This document shows, in pieces, positions 21,522 through 31,862 of a stretch of DNA of 64,000 nucleotides (the stretch's first letter is position 1; the number at the start of each line of letters is the position of its first letter). Below the pieces are notes generated by a model. That model saw only the letters and a program-made list of their open reading frames with translations. It was not told the origin of the DNA and ran no database searches. Source of the stretch: Arcicella aurantiaca. GTDB taxonomy: Bacteria; Bacteroidota; Bacteroidia; Cytophagales; Spirosomataceae. The position numbers and the translations under genes are program-made. The stretch covers positions 156,042 through 220,041 of the forward strand of contig NZ_QGGO01000007.1 in assembly GCF_003148625.1 (NCBI RefSeq), given 5' to 3'.

Positions 21522-22226
21522 ATGCAAAAAAGAGCCTTAATGAATTGGTCTGGAGGGAAAGACTCAGCCCTTTCTCTTTATCATATTCTTCAAAATAAAG
21601 AATACGAAGTTGAATATCTTTTAACGTCCTTGAATGATTCTTTCAAAAGAGTTTCGATGCACGGCGTTCGGGAAGAGTTGCTCGACCAACAAGCTGAAAA
21701 TATTGGTATTGATTTGGTAAAATTGCGTTTGGCAGAAACTGTTTCGATGGAAGAATATCAAGCAAAAATGGCTGAAACTATGCAACCATTAATTGAATCG
21801 GGGATTGAATATTCTATTTTTGGCGATATTTTCTTGGAAGATTTACGCCTACATCGAGAACAACGTTTGGCAGAAGTAGGCATGAAAGGTGTTTTCCCAA
21901 TCTGGAAACGCCCTTCTTTGGAATTATTAGATGAATTTTGGGATTTAGGTTTTAAAACAATTGTCGTTGCCATCAATGGAAATCAATTAGATAAATCATT
22001 TTGTGGTAGAATTCTCGACCGTGATTTTGTCAAAGATTTACCACCAACGGTTGACCCTTGTGGTGAAAATGGCGAATTCCATACCTTCGTTTTTGAAACG
22101 CCTTATTTTAAAAAGCCCATTAAATTTGATATTGGAGAAACCGTTGATAAAACCTATCATTTCAAAAATTCAGACGGCGATGATTTAACTTCGACTTACT
22201 TTTTTACAGATTTGATTCCTAAATAA
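21522..22226 (+). CDS. DUF71/COG2102 ATP-pyrophosphatase (B12-salvage type), copy 1
   Basis: A 234-residue PP-loop ATPase often auto-named diphthine-ammonia ligase. The PP-loop is WSGGKDSA at 9-16, and the C-terminal signature is DPCGENGEFHTFVFETP at about 179-195. Bacteria have no diphthamide, and published comparative genomics assigns a subset of DUF71 proteins to B12 salvage. Its place just after btuB and a cobalamin-binding protein fits that subset, probably as an amide-forming step on a corrinoid. It abuts copy 2 with no gap (TAA-ATG). Confidence 0.8.
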   Translation: MQKRALMNWSGGKDSALSLYHILQNKEYEVEYLLTSLNDSFKRVSMHGVREELLDQQAENIGIDLVKLRLAETVSMEEYQAKMAETMQPLIESGIEYSIFGDIFLEDLRLHREQRLAEVGMKGVFPIWKRPSLELLDEFWDLGFKTIVVAINGNQLDKSFCGRILDRDFVKDLPPTVDPCGENGEFHTFVFETPYFKKPIKFDIGETVDKTYHFKNSDGDDLTSTYFFTDLIPK

Positions 22227-22868
22227 ATGAACTTAATTTGCTCATGGTCAGGTGGTAAAGATTCTTGTTTTGCTTTGATGCAAATGAATCAGCAACCAGC
22301 AGTTTTATTAAATGCTTTGAATGAAAACGGAGAAATTAGTCGCTCGCACGGCTTGCATACGAGCATTTTGCAAGCTCAAGCCAAGGCAATGAATGTTCCG
22401 ATTGATTTTATTTCAGCAACTTGGAGTGATTATACAGGAAATTTTATCCAAAAACTCCAAGAACTTAGCCAGCAATATGAATTAACTGATGCTGTTTTTG
22501 GTGATATAGATATTGACGTTCACCGAGAATGGGAAGAGAGCGTTTGTCAATCTGCCAATCTAAATTGTCATTTGCCTTTATGGCAAAAAGACCGTAAGGG
22601 TCTGGTTTTCAGTATGATTGAATCAGGAGTAGTAGCCATGATAGTTTCTTGCAATGACCATTTAGGGCAAGGGTTTTTAGGTAAAATAATAAACCCAGAA
22701 ACCATTGTGGCGTTGGAAAGGAAAGGAGTAGATGTATGTGGCGAAAATGGCGAATTTCACACAGTAGTATTAGATTGTCCACTTTTTGCCAGTCCAATAG
22801 ACGTTATTTTAGGTGAAAAAAAGAGTAATGGAACGGGTTATAATTTCTTGGAGTTAAGGATAAAGTAG
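22227..22868 (+). CDS. DUF71/COG2102 ATP-pyrophosphatase (B12-salvage type), copy 2
   Basis: A 213-residue paralogue of the preceding gene, beginning at the base after its stop. The PP-loop is WSGGKDSC at 7-14 and the tail signature is VDVCGENGEFHTVVLDCPLF. The two proteins share the same plan but differ clearly in the middle (H-R-E-W-E-E-S-V-C here), so this is an old duplication. They may act on different substrates or form a heteromer. Expected substrate class is corrinoid, from context only. Confidence 0.8.
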   Translation: MNLICSWSGGKDSCFALMQMNQQPAVLLNALNENGEISRSHGLHTSILQAQAKAMNVPIDFISATWSDYTGNFIQKLQELSQQYELTDAVFGDIDIDVHREWEESVCQSANLNCHLPLWQKDRKGLVFSMIESGVVAMIVSCNDHLGQGFLGKIINPETIVALERKGVDVCGENGEFHTVVLDCPLFASPIDVILGEKKSNGTGYNFLELRIK

Positions 22869-24583: not shown

Positions 24584-25597
24584 ATGGATAAAAGGAGAAA
24601 TCATATCATTTTTTGGGTAGGGTATTTTTTATTGATTAATGGGATAAGTATTTGTGCAAGAATTGGGACTGGCTCTTTAACGATTCCATTTTTTTTAAGA
24701 ATTTTTGTTGGAGATGTCACAACTCTATCTCTCACATATTTATATTTGAATATTTTATTTCCACGTTTTTTAACTACTAAAAAATATTTATGGTTGCTTT
24801 TGGTGAGTTTGGGTTCTTATTTTTTAATAGTTTCAGGTATTTATGGATTGTTTCGGAGTTTACAGCAATTATATCCTCAGATATTTTCTTCGGTTGAATT
24901 TTTACAAGAATTTATAAATGTAATATATTCTTTTTTTAGAGTCCTTAATATAACATTTTCATTTTGGATTTTTAAAAAATTATTAGCTGAACTTGAGCAG
25001 AAGAAAGAAAAAGAAAAGAAATATTTTACCTTGAATAAACATATATCGAATGCTGAACTGATGAGCCTTAAAAACCAAATAAATCCTCACTTTTTTTATA
25101 ATAGCCTTAATTTTTTATACGCACAGTCGATTCCTTATTCAGTCAAACTTTCAAAGAGTATTCTTTCCCTTGCTGATATGATGAGATATTCTATCAGAGA
25201 TAATGATGAAACTAATACTATACCCTTAGAACAAGAAATAGCTTATCTTGAGAGATACATCTATTTAGAAAATATTGAAAGTCAGAGTAGCTATCAAAGT
25301 CAATTGATTGTTATGGGTAACGTCAAATATAGACGGATTGTACCATTGGTATTACAGCCTATTTTGAGTAGTAGTTATCATTTTGGGAAAGAGGTGAACA
25401 TTGGAATATCAATAGAAGAAAATCAAATACAATTTGTATGTACCTATACCAAAAAACAAGAAATAGAGATAAGTGATATTGATGAGTTTCATAATGTTTT
25501 AAGACGTAAAATGGTCAATAAATATTATCAGAGTTTAAGTGTAAACTATACCCATAATACAGAGTTATATAGCATTTTTATTGTCATTTTATCATGA
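24584..25597 (+). CDS. LytS-type kinase protein A1: acceptor His kept, ATP-binding lost
   Basis: A 337-residue inner-membrane protein with four N-terminal helices (about 8-26, 38-59, 68-90, 108-130), a charged helix, and a His_kinase (LytS/YehU) domain. The phospho-acceptor box is intact: LKNQINPHFFYNSLNFL with His169. The catalytic half is degenerate. Where family members have the N-box ENAxKHG, this has LSSSYHFG (261-268), and the GxGLxNxxxRL box is absent. It should therefore receive phosphate but not bind ATP. It overlaps the next gene by ATGA, implying coupled translation and a complex. A2 is a tandem copy: the first 15 residues differ at only one position. Confidence 0.88.
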   Translation: MDKRRNHIIFWVGYFLLINGISICARIGTGSLTIPFFLRIFVGDVTTLSLTYLYLNILFPRFLTTKKYLWLLLVSLGSYFLIVSGIYGLFRSLQQLYPQIFSSVEFLQEFINVIYSFFRVLNITFSFWIFKKLLAELEQKKEKEKKYFTLNKHISNAELMSLKNQINPHFFYNSLNFLYAQSIPYSVKLSKSILSLADMMRYSIRDNDETNTIPLEQEIAYLERYIYLENIESQSSYQSQLIVMGNVKYRRIVPLVLQPILSSSYHFGKEVNIGISIEENQIQFVCTYTKKQEIEISDIDEFHNVLRRKMVNKYYQSLSVNYTHNTELYSIFIVILS

Positions 25598-26625
25598 AAA
25601 ACTTAAAATATCATATAATTTATTGGGCTATATTTTATGTGTTGTATTGTATATTACATTTTGGTATATATGAAACAGAAGTTTATTGGTATCCCTTTTT
25701 TATAATACTATTGAATTTATGTATGTATATAATACCCTATTATATTTCTCTTTTATTTATAATTCCAAGGTATTGGGAAAAAGGGAAATATAGTTTGACA
25801 ACCATTCTCTTTTTTATGTCAATATGTTTTACACATTTTTTTATCCATTTTTTTTACACTTTTTTTAAGATACCTATTCCAAGGGGAGATAACTCTAATG
25901 AGTTATCAATGTTGCAAGATTTTTTATTTATGATGAATATATTTATTCTTACACTCCCCTTTGCTTTTACGTTATTTTACATAGGGAAAATAGAAAAAGA
26001 AATAAAAGCTCAACAAATAATAGAACTGGAAAATTTTCGACTCGAACAATCCATTACACAAACAGAATTAAACAATCTCAAAAATCAAATTAATCCAGAT
26101 TTCTTATTTCGTAAACTAAACCATTTTTATCAAGAATCTATCATTTATTCTCCAAACCTCTCAAAAGGAATTGCCTTGTTAACAGATATGATGCACTATG
26201 CAATTGATGAAGAAGATGCTAATGGAAAAGTGTTACTAATAAAAGAAATTAAACATATTCATAATTTTATTGAAATAAATCAACTAAGATTTGATGGACG
26301 CTTATACGTTGATTTTGAAGTAACTGAGATTGATAATAAGCATCAAATTATGCCTTTAGTTTTGATAACATTTGTTGAAAATGCCTTTAAATATGGAGAA
26401 TTATTTGATAGTGAAAACCCGCTTAAAATACAAATAAGGGTTGTGGATAACGAGTTGCTGTTTTCTACTTTTAACCTTAAACGTAGAGGACCAACTGAAT
26501 TATCGGAAGGGATAGGGATTGTAAATACACAAAGACGATTAGCTCTGGGGTATCCATTTAAATATCAGTTAAATATTGTAGAAGACTCGAAATTGTATAA
26601 AGTAGATTTAAGTTTGATTCTTTAA
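25594..26625 (+). CDS. LytS-type kinase protein B1: ATP-binding kept, acceptor His replaced by Asp
   Basis: A 343-residue membrane protein with four helices in the first 130 residues and a LytS-type kinase domain. The ATP-binding elements are well preserved: N-box FVENAFKYG (Asn262) and G-box EGIGIVNTQRRL (Gly306, Gly308). The acceptor box reads NLKNQINPDFLFRKLN, with Asp169 where the histidine should be, so it cannot autophosphorylate on the usual residue. Together with A1, whose defects are the reverse, it could form one working kinase that phosphorylates His169 of A1. Start overlaps A1's stop by four bases. A terminator hairpin follows. Confidence 0.88.
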   Translation: MKNLKYHIIYWAIFYVLYCILHFGIYETEVYWYPFFIILLNLCMYIIPYYISLLFIIPRYWEKGKYSLTTILFFMSICFTHFFIHFFYTFFKIPIPRGDNSNELSMLQDFLFMMNIFILTLPFAFTLFYIGKIEKEIKAQQIIELENFRLEQSITQTELNNLKNQINPDFLFRKLNHFYQESIIYSPNLSKGIALLTDMMHYAIDEEDANGKVLLIKEIKHIHNFIEINQLRFDGRLYVDFEVTEIDNKHQIMPLVLITFVENAFKYGELFDSENPLKIQIRVVDNELLFSTFNLKRRGPTELSEGIGIVNTQRRLALGYPFKYQLNIVEDSKLYKVDLSLIL

Positions 26626-26634
26626 TAAATTAAA

Positions 26635-26660
26635 AAGGCTTGTAACGAATTACAAGCCTT
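26635..26660 (+). terminator. Terminator after kinase B1
   Basis: Ten-bp perfect stem AAGGCTTGTA / TACAAGCCTT, 6-nt loop, then CTCTTTT. It separates the two kinase pairs into different transcripts. Confidence 0.8.
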
Positions 26661-26956
26661 CTCTTTTATAAAATGTGCAGAGACTGATTTATATATTGAG
26701 GACAATGCTGCCTGTGTAGAATACCCTTGTAGAACCCTTAATTTTCCTAAAGTTGGTTTTATGTTTTCAAAAAAAAAAATATATTACACGAACCCCTCAA
26801 TAAAAATGACTAATTGGGCAAAAACAAGGGTAAACCGATTTTAGGAGATTTTTGGTTTGAAAAGGTATTGGTACATTATGGAAAGGAGTTAATCAATGAT
26901 TTTGACTGTTTCATGTAAAAAACACTATTTATTCTCAATGACTATTTTAGAATTGG

Positions 26957-26964
26957 TAATTTTG
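26957..26964 (+). promoter_or_regulatory. -7 element of kinase pair 2
   Basis: TAATTTTG matches TAnnTTTG, about 23 nt before the A2 ATG, at almost the same distance as in pair 1. No TTG is seen at -33, so basal strength may be lower or an activator may be needed. Confidence 0.5.
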
Positions 26965-26987
26965 AGTTAATCACATGAACATACTAA

Positions 26988-28004
26988 ATGGATAAAAAGA
27001 GAAATCATATAATTTTTTGGGTTGGGTATTTTATGTACTATTATTTTATGTACTATTATCTTGTAAAAGATTTGATTGATGAAGGTACTTTTACAATAAA
27101 GGGTATTTTCGTAAGTGTATTTAAAATAAGTTTTGGCACTGTGGTATCATTTTATATTCTAAACTTAAATATTTTTCCATCCACTTTACCCTTAAAAAAA
27201 TATTTTAAATTATGTTTTTTTGTAGCAATACTTGTTTTTTTAATTTTTGAGATTAATTATCAAGTTGGACAATTGTTTCATTACCTCTCTCCTCAAGATA
27301 TTCCTTCTCCTAATATTGGAAAAAGTATTAACCTTACAATTCTTTCGATACAACATTCTTTTGCTTTTGCTCTTATTTTTTGGTTTAGTAAAATTTTTAT
27401 TGCGAATGCAAAATATCAACGTTTTCTTCAAGATAAACAAAATGTATTGCGTAATAATATTTTAAGTGCAGAACTATTGGCACTAAAGAATCAGATAAAT
27501 CCTCATTTTTTTTATAATATGTTAAACTTTTTCTATGCCCAATTTTTGCCTTATTCTAAAAGTACATCAACTGCCATTCTTAAACTATCAGATATGATGA
27601 GATATACAATTAGGGATAATCATTATGAAGGCAAAGCATTATTGGAAAATGAAATAAATTATTTGAAAAACTATATTGATTTGGAAAATGTAAATAGATA
27701 TTCTGATGTAATTGTTGTTTCTATCAATGGCAATCCTACCTTCAAAAAGGTTAGACCATTAATATTTCTACCTATTTTGGAACATTGTTGCTTGTTTGGT
27801 ATGCAGATAAAACTAAAAATGGATATTGACGATAATTACGTAATGTTTTCAGGTTATTATATTAAAAAAAATAATGTAACCATCCCACATATTCTTGAAA
27901 GTGTAGAAAGTATTAAGCAAAAAATATCCTATTTTAAAGAATGTAATATCATGTTTAGTCATACAGAAATGGAGAATAACTTTCAAATGTCGATAGTGCC
28001 ATGA
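26988..28004 (+). CDS. LytS-type kinase protein A2: acceptor His kept, ATP-binding lost
   Basis: A 338-residue tandem paralogue of A1; the first residues MDKKRNHIIFWVGYF are nearly identical, then the membrane part diverges strongly (helices near 8-27, 38-62, 72-90, 115-138). The acceptor box ALKNQINPHFFYNMLNFFYA keeps His173. The N-box is replaced by LEHCCLFG (264-271) and no GxG box is present, so ATP binding is not expected. It overlaps B2 by ATGA. Preserved acceptor motif with lost catalytic motif in both copies argues for function and against decay. Confidence 0.88.
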   Translation: MDKKRNHIIFWVGYFMYYYFMYYYLVKDLIDEGTFTIKGIFVSVFKISFGTVVSFYILNLNIFPSTLPLKKYFKLCFFVAILVFLIFEINYQVGQLFHYLSPQDIPSPNIGKSINLTILSIQHSFAFALIFWFSKIFIANAKYQRFLQDKQNVLRNNILSAELLALKNQINPHFFYNMLNFFYAQFLPYSKSTSTAILKLSDMMRYTIRDNHYEGKALLENEINYLKNYIDLENVNRYSDVIVVSINGNPTFKKVRPLIFLPILEHCCLFGMQIKLKMDIDDNYVMFSGYYIKKNNVTIPHILESVESIKQKISYFKECNIMFSHTEMENNFQMSIVP

Positions 28005-29029
28005 AAAGTTTGAAATTTCATATTATTTTATGGACAATAAATTATTTGTTTCATTGTGTAGGGCATTTTACTGGTTCTCCTACAAAAATTTATATAGTAT
28101 CTCTTCTTATTATTTTATATAATGTACTTGTAAAAACGATAGTTTTTTACATAACTCTATATTGTATTATACCCTTATATTTGGAAAAAAAGCAAATCTC
28201 GAAATTTATTCTATTAATGATTTTTAATATTGGAGGAGTTGCTTTTGTGAGTGTTTTAATGAATAATTTTCTTCCTGTTGCTGAAGGGGATAAATCAGTT
28301 GACCTTACATTTATTGAAAATTATGTGGCTAATTTAATTGATATATTGGGTGTCTTCCCTTTTGTTTTTGTATTCTGGTATGTTAATAGAATTGTAACAC
28401 AAGAACGCATTAAAATACAAATTGAGCAAGAAAATCACTATCTCGAACAATCTATTATAGAGACTCAGTTATATAACTTGAAAAATCAAATTAACCCTGA
28501 TTTTCTCTTCCGAAAATTGAATTATTTTTACCATGAATCGTTGCCATATTCTCCCAATCTATCAAAGGGAATTTCTTTACTAACGGACATGATGCACTAT
28601 GCAATTGACGATGATGACGATAACTTGAAAGTCTCTTTACAAAAAGAAATAAAACATATACAGAACTTTGTTGAAATCAATCAATTGCGTTTTAATGGAC
28701 GTTTACAAGTAGAATTCGATATAGTAGGAGTCGAAAAGAGGCATGAAATTATGCCCTTGATTTTGATAACTTTTGTTGAAAATGCCCTTAAATATGGAGA
28801 ATTATTTGATAAGAATAATCCGCTGAAAATAAGATTAAAAGTTGAAGATAATAATTTATTCTTTACTACTTTTAATCTTACCCGACGAGGCCCCAAGGAG
28901 GATTCTGAAGGTATTGGAATTGATAACACACAAAAGCGACTTTCTCTGGGATATGTTGATAATTATAGCTTAGATATCAAGCATGAACCAGAATTTTATG
29001 AAGTGGCTTTGTATATTAAATTAGAATAA
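28001..29029 (+). CDS. LytS-type kinase protein B2: ATP-binding kept, acceptor His replaced by Asp
   Basis: A 342-residue tandem paralogue of B1. Four membrane helices fill the first 130 residues. NLKNQINPDFLFRKLNYFY has Asp167 at the acceptor position. The N-box FVENALKYG (Asn261) and G-box EGIGIDNTQKRL (Gly304, Gly306) are intact. The C-terminal kinase half is much closer to B1 than the membrane half is, so the catalytic role is conserved while the sensor part has changed. It ends 4 bp before the LytTR regulator, so A2, B2 and regulator form one operon. Confidence 0.88.
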   Translation: MKSLKFHIILWTINYLFHCVGHFTGSPTKIYIVSLLIILYNVLVKTIVFYITLYCIIPLYLEKKQISKFILLMIFNIGGVAFVSVLMNNFLPVAEGDKSVDLTFIENYVANLIDILGVFPFVFVFWYVNRIVTQERIKIQIEQENHYLEQSIIETQLYNLKNQINPDFLFRKLNYFYHESLPYSPNLSKGISLLTDMMHYAIDDDDDNLKVSLQKEIKHIQNFVEINQLRFNGRLQVEFDIVGVEKRHEIMPLILITFVENALKYGELFDKNNPLKIRLKVEDNNLFFTTFNLTRRGPKEDSEGIGIDNTQKRLSLGYVDNYSLDIKHEPEFYEVALYIKLE

Positions 29030-29033
29030 CACT

Positions 29034-29780
29034 ATGATAAATTGTTTAGTAATTGATGATGAACAGGCAGCGATTGATGTCATAAAATTTCATGTCAAGA
29101 GTATCCCTTTTTTAAATATAGTAGCTGTAAGTCTTGGACCTGTGGAGGCTTTGGAGATAATTTATACTCAAAAAATAGATTTGATTTTTATTGATATTCA
29201 AATGCCTGAACTTTCGGGATTGGATTTCATAAAACTAACTAAAGGTAGATGTAAATTTATCCTCACAACCGCTTATAAACAATATGCACTTGATGGATAT
29301 GAACATAATGTGATTGATTATCTATTAAAACCAATTTCTTTTGAACGACTTTTACAGGCTGTACAGAAGGCTCAGGATATTTTATTTCCACCTACAATTC
29401 CTATTGAAGTTCCTTCAAACAGTGGCATAAAAACGAAGGATTTTATCTTTGTGAAAACCGATAACCGAATGCAAAAAATATTCTTTTCGGAAATCCTTTT
29501 TATTGAAGGGTTAGGAAATTATGTAACTTTTAATACAACCAAAGGTAAATTTGTGTCACTTTTGAATATGAAAGATTTGGAAGGAAATGAAACGTTGCCA
29601 CACGATAATTTTTTACGTGTTCATCGTTCATTTATTATTTCTTTGGATAAAATTGAATATGTAGAAGGCGGAAATATTTACTTGGACAAAGATACTCCAA
29701 TACCGCTTGGGGATACCTATAAAAACTTGCTTTGGACGGCTCTGGATAGTAGAATCGTTCCTGCTAAAAAGAGTTATTGA
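29034..29780 (+). CDS. LytTR-family response regulator
   Basis: A 248-residue transcription factor, the expected phosphate acceptor of LytS-type kinases. The receiver domain has the acidic pocket Asp8-Asp9-Glu10, phospho-acceptor Asp54 in LIFIDIQMPELSG, and Lys99 in YLLKPISFE. After a linker (about 120-140) the LytTR DNA-binding domain has DFIFVKTDNRMQKIFFSEILFIEGLGNYV and FLRVHRSFIISLDKIEYVEG. LytTR proteins bind paired 9-bp direct repeats; I did not find a clear pair here. It is the only regulator for four kinase proteins. A terminator follows. Confidence 0.93.
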   Translation: MINCLVIDDEQAAIDVIKFHVKSIPFLNIVAVSLGPVEALEIIYTQKIDLIFIDIQMPELSGLDFIKLTKGRCKFILTTAYKQYALDGYEHNVIDYLLKPISFERLLQAVQKAQDILFPPTIPIEVPSNSGIKTKDFIFVKTDNRMQKIFFSEILFIEGLGNYVTFNTTKGKFVSLLNMKDLEGNETLPHDNFLRVHRSFIISLDKIEYVEGGNIYLDKDTPIPLGDTYKNLLWTALDSRIVPAKKSY

Positions 29781-29951: not shown

Positions 29952-31862
29952 TTAATACAATAATCTAAACTTAATTGTATTATCAATTCCTTTCAATTCT
30001 GCTACAATTTCGTCGGCATATTCTTTTGAAATATCAGTGATAACATAACCGATTTCGTTGGTAGTTTTCAAATATTGACCTTTGATATTTACATTATATT
30101 TGGCAAAAATATTGTTGATTTTTGCTAAAATACCTGGTACATTTTGGTGAATATGCAACAAACGGTGAGCATCTTCCAACGGAGGTAACTGCAATTCAGG
30201 GAAGTTCACAGAACCATACGTGCTACCATTGTTCATGAATTGTAACAATTTACTTGGTACAAATTCGCCAATATTCGCTTGGGCTTCTTCAGTTGAACCT
30301 CCTACGTGTGGTGTTAAAATTACTCTTGGCAAACCACGCAATTCATTGATAAATTCTTCGTCGTTTGTTTTTGGTTCGTAAGGGAAAACGTCAACTGCCG
30401 CACCCCAAACTTTTCCTGATTTCAAGGCATTTACCAAAGCAGGAATTTCAACTACGTGTCCACGAGAAAGATTTATGAAAATTACATTGTCTTTCATTTG
30501 AGCAAATTCACGTTCACCAATGATGTTTGCATTTGATTTGCGTCCATCTACGTGCAGCGAAATAAAATCAGAAATGTTTAATAATTCTTCTAAAGTTTTA
30601 CATTTCTTGGCATTTCCTAAAGCTAATTTATCAACGGCATCGTAGAAATAAACTTGCATACCCATAGCTTCTGCAATGACAGAAATTTGTGTTCCGATGC
30701 TTCCGTAACCAACCAAACCTAATTTCTTCCCTCTGATTTCGTAAGAATTTTTGGCAGATTTATCCCAAACACCTTCGTGCATTTTGTTCGATTTCGTCAT
30801 GATGTCACGGGTCAAAATAATCATTTCACCGATTGCCATTTCTACTACCGAACGAGTATTTGAGTAGGGAGCATTGAAAACTGCAATACCTCTACGCTCG
30901 CATTCGTCCAAATTGATTTGGTTTGTTCCGATACAAAATGCACCAACAGCCATCAAACGACTTGCGTTTGGATGTTCCAAAACTCGTTTCGTCAGGTTTG
31001 TTTTTGAACGTAAACCTAAGATTGATACGCCTTTAATTTTCTCAATTAATTCGTCCTCATCCAAAGCTCCTTTCAATAATTCTACTTGAAAACCTTCAAT
31101 TTTAAATGCTTCAACAGCTTTTGGGTGAACGTTTTCTAATAATAAAACCTTAATTTTTGATTTCGGATACGACTGTGAACGACTTAACCCATTGATATAC
31201 AAAAACTCATCAAATGAATGTACGATTTCGTCTGCTTTGTCGGTAACTTTCTGGCGTTCAACGTTTTCTGTAAAAGCAAAAAACTTGTTTGCCAAACCCG
31301 CTTCACGCATTTCGTAATCTGTGTAGCCGTCACCAATTGCGTAAATATCTCCCTCAAAATCAAGCGATTGCAATAATTTCACCTTGCCTTTATCTTGTGA
31401 TAACAGATTGCTTTCGTCGTAACCTGTAATGTTTCCTTCTTCGTCGTAAGTGAAAGTATTAGCGAAAACATTTTTCTCTAAAACACCCATTGAAGCAGCC
31501 ACAGGCACAATAAAATCCTTGAATCCAGACGATACAATATAGATATTTTTAGTATTTTCACGAATGAAGGCTTCGTTGCGAGCAAATGAATCAGAGATTT
31601 TTCCCATCAAAAACTCAATCAACTCCGTTACGTGCGAGCTATTAGCAGGCAAAAGAGCTACTCTTTCTTTCAAGGATTCCGCAAATCCGATTTCGCCAGC
31701 CATACCTCTATCAGTAATAGCTTTAATCTGACCTACAATTTTGTCTTGGTCTTTATGACCTTTCAAGGCAATGGCTGCCAATTCGTCAAGTCCTTCAACT
31801 TTAGTAAAAGTTGAGTCAAAATCAATGACGAAGTTAATTTCTTGTGCTGTGTTGGTTAACAT
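29952..31862 (-). CDS. SerB-SerA fusion: phosphoserine phosphatase + D-3-phosphoglycerate dehydrogenase
   Basis: A 636-residue bifunctional-looking protein of serine synthesis. Residues about 8-225 are a HAD phosphatase of the SerB type: motif I FVIDFDSTFT with nucleophile Asp14 and Asp16, IVSSGFKDFIVPVA (motif II), and IGDGYTDYEM (motif III). Residues about 235-560 are a phosphoglycerate dehydrogenase: GLRSKTNLTK, GAFCIGTNQINLD, the NAD-binding LGLVGYGSIGTQ, and HVGGSTEEAQ. A C-terminal ACT domain (about 565-636, HIHQNVPGILAKINNIF) is the usual serine-sensing regulator. The first and last steps of the pathway are thus on one chain; SerC is not in the window. Last gene of a three-gene operon. 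Confidence 0.92.
   Translation of the reverse strand: MLTNTAQEINFVIDFDSTFTKVEGLDELAAIALKGHKDQDKIVGQIKAITDRGMAGEIGFAESLKERVALLPANSSHVTELIEFLMGKISDSFARNEAFIRENTKNIYIVSSGFKDFIVPVAASMGVLEKNVFANTFTYDEEGNITGYDESNLLSQDKGKVKLLQSLDFEGDIYAIGDGYTDYEMREAGLANKFFAFTENVERQKVTDKADEIVHSFDEFLYINGLSRSQSYPKSKIKVLLLENVHPKAVEAFKIEGFQVELLKGALDEDELIEKIKGVSILGLRSKTNLTKRVLEHPNASRLMAVGAFCIGTNQINLDECERRGIAVFNAPYSNTRSVVEMAIGEMIILTRDIMTKSNKMHEGVWDKSAKNSYEIRGKKLGLVGYGSIGTQISVIAEAMGMQVYFYDAVDKLALGNAKKCKTLEELLNISDFISLHVDGRKSNANIIGEREFAQMKDNVIFINLSRGHVVEIPALVNALKSGKVWGAAVDVFPYEPKTNDEEFINELRGLPRVILTPHVGGSTEEAQANIGEFVPSKLLQFMNNGSTYGSVNFPELQLPPLEDAHRLLHIHQNVPGILAKINNIFAKYNVNIKGQYLKTTNEIGYVITDISKEYADEIVAELKGIDNTIKFRLLY

Follow-up and report, generated by a model that had tools for sequence, protein, structure and literature searches.

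Phosphorelay proteins such as ChpT and Spo0B obtain their phosphate from receiver domains and not from the ATPase of a paralogue. In Mycobacterium tuberculosis, kinase functions reside on two adjacent proteins, Rv0600c and Rv0601c, which represent a domain-level split in a different kinase family and not a reciprocal pair of paralogues. A characterised split kinase is formed by CheA3 and CheA4 of Rhodobacter sphaeroides: neither protein autophosphorylates alone; one carries the acceptor His together with the phosphatase, the other the ATPase, and jointly they serve a regulator as a single kinase (PMC3591291). The same text estimates that split bifunctional kinases could make up 1.7% of HisKA proteins. 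Intermolecular complementation of CheA likewise figures as a title in the reference list of PMC5956149. Furthermore, an acceptor His linked to a dead catalytic and ATP-binding (CA) domain can be functional, as the reports on MaeK (PMC5457438) and ChpT (PMC3433190) indicate: MaeK of Lactobacillales is a membrane sensor that keeps its acceptor His next to a degenerate CA domain not binding ATP, and ChpT of Caulobacter and Spo0B are histidine-kinase-like dimers with an acceptor His, ChpT having an atypical Bergerat domain without ATP. Here we describe a locus of Arcicella aurantiaca in which four LytS-type kinase genes, arranged as two tandem pairs (A1B1 and A2B2), precede the gene of one LytTR response regulator, and in which the A and B proteins have lost complementary halves of the kinase active site. 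The locus lies at positions 24584–29780 of a 64,000-nucleotide stretch of contig NZ_QGGO01000007.1 (hereafter the window), with all five genes on the plus strand.

The A proteins retain the phosphoacceptor and have lost the ATP-binding motifs. In A1 (24584–25597), the motif NPHFFYN with the acceptor His169 (25088–25090) is present, the place of the N-box is taken by SSSYHFG (25367–25387), and the G-box is absent; in A2 (26988–28004), the acceptor is His173 (27504–27506), the N-box place reads EHCCLFG (27780–27800), and the G-box is absent as well. The B proteins bear the reverse pattern. In B1 (25594–26625), the acceptor motif is replaced by NPDFLFR, with Asp169 at the place of the acceptor His (26098–26100) and Arg173 instead of the H-box Asn, and the N-box VENAFKYG (26374–26397) and the G-box GIGIVNTQRRL (26509–26541) are intact; B2 (28001–29029) has the same Asp (28499–28501) and Arg, an intact N-box VENALKYG (28775–28798) and an intact G-box GIGIDNTQKRL (28910–28942). 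Each A gene overlaps its B gene by ATGA, and B2 is separated by 4 bases from the regulator gene (29034–29780). The translations and the coordinates of the open reading frames thus bear out what an earlier note on this DNA had claimed about both the motifs and the gene junctions. As judged by these motifs, the acceptor and the ATPase sites are on separate polypeptides, neither of which is complete, as in a split kinase. Where A has its acceptor, Asp169 and Arg173 of B, four residues apart, could instead be joined by a salt bridge within the helix.

All four proteins belong to the LytS family. As the earlier note had proposed to check, they were compared with the Pfam profile His_kinase (PF06580), and all exceeded its curated cut-off of 25.2 bits (A1, 70.2; B1, 55.0; A2, 67.3; B2, 57.0); in the regulator, both the Response_reg and the LytTR domains scored above the Pfam cut-offs. 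As for a membrane-spanning N-terminal part, simple hydropathy analysis gave two segments for A1, four for B1, two for A2 and three for B2, and three for each of three intact relatives. The lack of a Pfam HATPase match was discarded as evidence because both intact relatives scanned (L118 and L120) have no such match either. In A, the C-terminal part can still be recognised as a CA domain by its alignment with those of intact relatives (hhalign probability 95.6, E 1.3e-8); its motifs are lost, and a short deletion is common to all A proteins. The sole solved structure matched by sequence, 6swj/6swk, is a histidine kinase. Elsewhere in the genome, which contains 23 PF06580 sites, the acceptor His is kept at all 19 sites outside the locus, and the N-box Asn was seen at 18 of the 19 (L022 was not read). 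The same genome holds a tandem duplicate that has not diverged into half-dead forms: at L021 (G000:C16, 1010–3305), two adjoining LytS kinases, 67% identical, both have the His and the N-box, and they lie directly downstream of an open reading frame that by appearance resembles a response regulator.

To quantify the reciprocity of the losses, we used as a reference 43 intact LytS kinases (7 single kinases described below and 36 others, one duplicate row having been removed) and scored 27 alignment columns, each conserved in at least 90% of them. Within the dimerisation and phosphotransfer (DHp) domain, three columns (His169, Asn173 and Arg201) have been lost from every B protein and remain in every A protein, with none in the reverse state; within the catalytic domain, eight columns are missing from every A protein and retained by every B protein, again with none reversed. 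Nine of the remaining columns are kept in both and seven are mixed. The split of the losses by domain gave a Fisher p of 0.006, a value to be read with the reservation that columns are not truly independent. Since the pattern by which 36 of the 43 controls had been picked included both the His and the GxG box, His169, the two Gly and the G-box Arg do not count as independent evidence; with these four columns set aside, the split is 2:0 in the DHp domain vs. 0:5 in the catalytic domain.

The complementary pattern recurs in a second species. A scan of named genomes gave one locus, L055, in the metagenome-assembled genome (MAG) of Arcicella sp. Prado083, where one A, one B and one regulator gene lie between the same mrp and serA-type neighbours as in the window. 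The A protein of L055 (338 aa) has NPHFFYN and, at the N-box place, SSSCQFG; the ATGA overlap of A and B is retained; and the B gene, read downstream of a frame break considered below, encodes NPDFLFRKL, VENAFKYG and GIGIANTEKRL. The acceptor His in NPHF is therefore present in three A proteins and replaced by Asp in three B proteins, and the N-box and G-boxes are present in the three B and absent from the three A proteins. Sequencing error was rejected as the cause of the losses in the window, since they are common to two diverged copies and recur in a second species. The regulators of the two loci are 70% identical. A clean B1/B2 chimera in Prado083 was looked for and was not clear: the N-terminal piece of the L055 B protein is nearer to B1 and the C-terminal piece nearer to B2, with the DNA identity to B1 and B2 being similar along the gene.

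Related genera show what may have preceded the pair. Each of five genomes from a single genus of the same family (G116–G120) has one intact kinase with an orthologous LytTR regulator divergent from mrp, in exactly the place where the window and L055 have the A/B pair. Altogether, seven single kinases of this kind, each with the His, the N-box and the G-boxes, stand beside regulators that are 57–61% identical to that of the window. In a 50-row tree, A and B each formed one clade (support 100/100 for each), and A, B, six of the seven single kinases and a duplicate row made up a 13-row set (98/90), with the kinase of G121 next outside it. The presence of an intact kinase with the orthologous regulator at the same place in G116–G120 suggests that the pair probably replaced a normal kinase through duplication and reciprocal loss. 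The three A proteins have in common a Tyr for the conserved Asn288, a Lys for Arg309 and the short deletion, which follows the N-box, and the three B proteins have in common Asp169 and Arg173; hence, a single reciprocal loss that preceded the duplication of the pair is very probable. The earlier note had taken the retention of the reciprocal loss in two diverged copies as an argument against random decay. Both copies do retain it, but they do not represent independent cases, as one event has been kept twice. The simplest history would then run from an intact kinase through tandem duplication and reciprocal loss to a duplication of the upstream region with A and B. That the duplicated unit probably included the upstream region is suggested by the spacer between B1 and A2 (26626–26987), which can be aligned (MAFFT, no significance test) with the spacer between mrp and A in L055. 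A1 groups with the A protein of L055, the alternatives A1+A2 and A2+L055 A being rejected by the approximately unbiased test (p-AU 0.0015 and 0.0004, respectively); the grouping of B2 with the L055 B protein is weakly supported (alternatives, p-AU 0.12 and 0.105). We did not rely on the branching order of the pair duplication, as the long A2 branch makes the grouping unsafe.

Selective constraint differs by domain in the same sense as the motifs. Ratios of nonsynonymous to synonymous substitution (dN/dS) were calculated pairwise and by region with NG86 and are rough. In the DHp domain, they were 0.08–0.12 for A, and the B proteins are 75–85% identical there at a saturated dS. In the catalytic domain, dN/dS was 0.15–0.27 for B, 0.26 for A1 vs. 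the L055 A, and 0.61–0.70 for the pairs that include A2 (0.70 for A1/A2). Thus, the DHp domain is constrained in both proteins, and the catalytic domain is constrained in B and relaxed in A. This order of constraint is predicted if A gives the His, B gives the ATPase, and both give the dimer interface.

Taken together, the reciprocal losses, the gene overlap, the constraint by domain and the orthologous intact kinase are best read as pointing to an obligate A–B heteromer with phosphoryl transfer from B to A, as had been proposed, and we consider it likely that B phosphorylates the His of A in trans and that A phosphorylates, and perhaps dephosphorylates, the regulator. On this model, one intact LytS-type kinase would have given rise to two full-length, presumably membrane-bound copies dividing its active site: A would have kept the phosphoacceptor His and, four residues further, the Asn, and B the ATP-binding motifs. 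The two proteins would assemble via the conserved DHp helices into a dimer or a higher heteromer, in which the catalytic domain of B would phosphorylate the His of A; from A, the phosphate would go on to the LytTR regulator encoded alongside, which A might also dephosphorylate. Homodimers of A and homodimers of B should be inactive, so that any output would need both partners. A later duplication of the pair with its upstream region would have produced A1B1 and A2B2 with one regulator. The losses in the sequences, the orthologous locus with its one intact kinase, the constraint by domain and the conserved overlap are observations, and dimerisation, phosphotransfer, the signal and the target genes are matters of inference.

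Several observations weigh against this model. In L055, a length change that shifts the frame interrupts the B gene immediately before the H-box, and we cannot tell whether this is a MAG or assembly error or a real loss of function. The genes are present in only two of the eight genomes of the genus (G000, the genome of the window, and G007, with the same genes as L055). In G152, which represents another genus, the kinase and regulator genes lie about 2.4 kb from mrp and on its other side, and in G121 they are present with no mrp on the stretch fetched. The trees do not establish A+B as a single clade, nor was such a clade rejected (p-AU 0.43). A 19-row tree, which carried a long-branch warning, did not place A and B neatly with the single kinases. 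Finally, dS is near saturation, which leaves the dN/dS values rough, and the catalytic domain of A evolves fast, so that slow decay would look alike.

The whole locus might be decaying under selection relaxed after duplication, with the complementarity being accidental or only partly used. Such a decay would accord with the broken B frame of Prado083, with the relaxed catalytic domain of A and with the sparse distribution in the genus: no match to A1 (threshold 1e-25) or B1 (threshold 1e-40) was found in G002–G006, a single 31% match to B1 in G001, which was not read, is as weak as that of a His-bearing kinase of the window's own genome (L012), and G001, G002 and G005 have mrp with no kinase beside it. 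(The contigs of G004 and G006 end 1.5 kb on and within mrp, respectively, and mrp had no match in G003.) We nevertheless regard decay as improbable, as all four reading frames in the window are intact, the DHp domain of A and both domains of B are strongly constrained, and Asp169/Arg173 in B and the Tyr and Lys in A are common to diverged copies. Simulations in which the catalytic domain diverged neutrally as far as A1 and L055 argue in the same direction: a stop codon was gained in 300 of 300 runs, and the mean protein identity fell to 0.30 vs. the 0.46 observed between A1 and the L055 A.

A somewhat stronger competitor, though still an unlikely one, is that A works as a phosphotransferase or phosphatase like MaeK or ChpT with no donor role for B, while B is an ATP-binding pseudo-kinase acting as an allosteric modulator of A or of another kinase. 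The precedents of MaeK and ChpT, as presented in PMC5457438 and PMC3433190, favour this, and so does the finding that His-less LytS genes outside Arcicella adjoin kinases with the His and the N-box, which implies that a non-catalytic partner role may be common. However, every conserved residue of the N-box and G-box is kept in B, which pure allostery would not need; A and B adjoin and overlap in all three known pairs; and the locus encodes no receiver-only protein that could serve A as a donor. Least probable of all, and very unlikely, is that A and B each partner other LytS kinases of the cell and not each other. Candidate partners exist, as each of the 19 PF06580 kinases elsewhere in the genome has its acceptor His, but the adjacency and overlap of A and B are conserved, the two were duplicated jointly, and the A/B unit is orthologous to one kinase–regulator pair.

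The heteromer model places the locus near CheA3/CheA4, with which it has in common the acceptor His on one protein and the ATPase on the other; CheA3/CheA4 is a chemotaxis system arisen by loss of whole domains (PMC3591291), whereas A and B are full-length, presumably membrane-bound LytS paralogues with a reciprocal loss of motifs. The A proteins resemble MaeK, ChpT and Spo0B in the features given above, whereas MaeK belongs to the citrate family, and the available part of PMC5457438 makes no mention of a reciprocal ATP-binding partner. The nearest counterpart in the same family is the single LytS-type kinase of related genera, with an orthologous LytTR regulator and one intact kinase in place of A+B. 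The earlier note knew of no description of such a pair in this family. Our literature searches, whose coverage left out most subscription papers, found no description of reciprocal full-length LytS paralogues, but other families do have known examples of split and half-dead kinases, as PMC3591291, PMC5457438 and PMC3433190 attest; what is new, therefore, is the pairing of full-length paralogues with reciprocal losses, together with its history.

By its place, the Asn after the His of A appears equivalent to the N/T of the phosphatase motif HE/DxxN/T, which is named in PMC3591291. The same source predicts ultrasensitivity or bistability, under certain conditions, for systems whose ATPase resides on a different partner from the phosphatase and the acceptor; by analogy, the A/B arrangement would have the phosphatase and the acceptor on A and the ATPase on B. 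More tentatively, and with somewhat less than even confidence, we suggest that a homodimeric kinase, once tandem-duplicated, became an obligate heteromer by reciprocal active-site loss, and that the four half-kinases of the window, in the allowed A–B combinations, could act as an AND gate through which a single regulator integrates the input of up to four sensor domains. If these readings are true, an obligate two-protein kinase has evolved from a homodimer by complementary loss, and its intact single-gene version persists at the same place in a related genus, such that each evolutionary step can be tested. The locus would illustrate a route to irreversible heteromery of a protein complex and a natural form of intermolecular complementation; it would offer a compact system for the study of trans-phosphorylation in the LytS family, and the second duplication could permit combinatorial signalling.

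To learn how common such tandems are, we surveyed larger groups by pattern. The exact sequence QINPDFLF was found in 5 of 222 genomes of the family, at 6 places. A wider non-His pattern gave 74 places in 63 of 390 genomes of the order; all were inspected (30 loci, 40 stretches and 4 others), with the use of a self-built kinase profile whose 42 rows had been picked by His and GxG, and eight proved to be LytS kinases (two in G000 and one each in G160, G166, G462, G460, G316 and G265). All eight His-less LytS genes adjoin a His-bearing LytS gene. Outside Arcicella, where six loci and L006 of G183 were compared, all seven His-bearing partners have kept the N-box; in L006 the G-box of this partner was cut off, and L100, L134 and L136 have another residue for the first Gly of GxG. 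In G160 and G166 (L004 and L005), an intact LytS kinase is followed by a His-to-Asp paralogue, with VENAFK kept and the G-box absent, and then by a regulator-like gene. In the tandem LytS pairs of L134 (943–3104, G316) and L136 (2052–4282, G265), one kinase has the His and the N-box, and the second has lost both, the acceptor His being changed to Glu. A class-wide search for His-less LytS genes yielded 10 places in 9 of 395 genomes, of which 3 were known and 7 were new loci, none of the latter being a kinase by the profile. Adjacent genes with the same losses, for which the earlier note had suggested a search of Bacteroidota, were thus found in Prado083, and outside Arcicella we saw only partners with an intact N-box. 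The tandem of a His-less and a His-bearing LytS gene is recurrent, and among the loci seen the reciprocal state occurs only in Arcicella. We make no claim that the reciprocal pair is unique, because the patterns need the QxNPxF core and cannot find A-type genes. If the heteromer model is correct, it suggests that the pseudo-kinase and kinase tandems of the order are heteromeric sensors and not junk.

The arrangement of the genes bears on their transcription. A terminator-like hairpin, detected by pattern match only, lies 3′ of B1 (26635–26660, plus strand), inside the part of the B1–A2 spacer that can be aligned with L055. Together with the similarity of this spacer to the one between mrp and A in L055, it suggests that A1B1 may be transcribed as a unit of its own, apart from A2B2 and the regulator. 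Promoter-like sites were not in excess (42 vs. 38.6 in shuffles). The four kinase genes have a G+C content of 26–29%, compared with 35% for the window and 37–40% for serA and mrp.

Two further features of the window are worth recording. At 21522–22868, two neighbouring genes with the Diphthami_syn_2 domain (PF01902) have 0 bases between them. At 29952–31862, a protein of 636 aa combines a HAD-type hydrolase, a D-isomer 2-hydroxyacid dehydrogenase and an ACT domain; as judged by its domains, it looks like a fusion of phosphoserine phosphatase and phosphoglycerate dehydrogenase.

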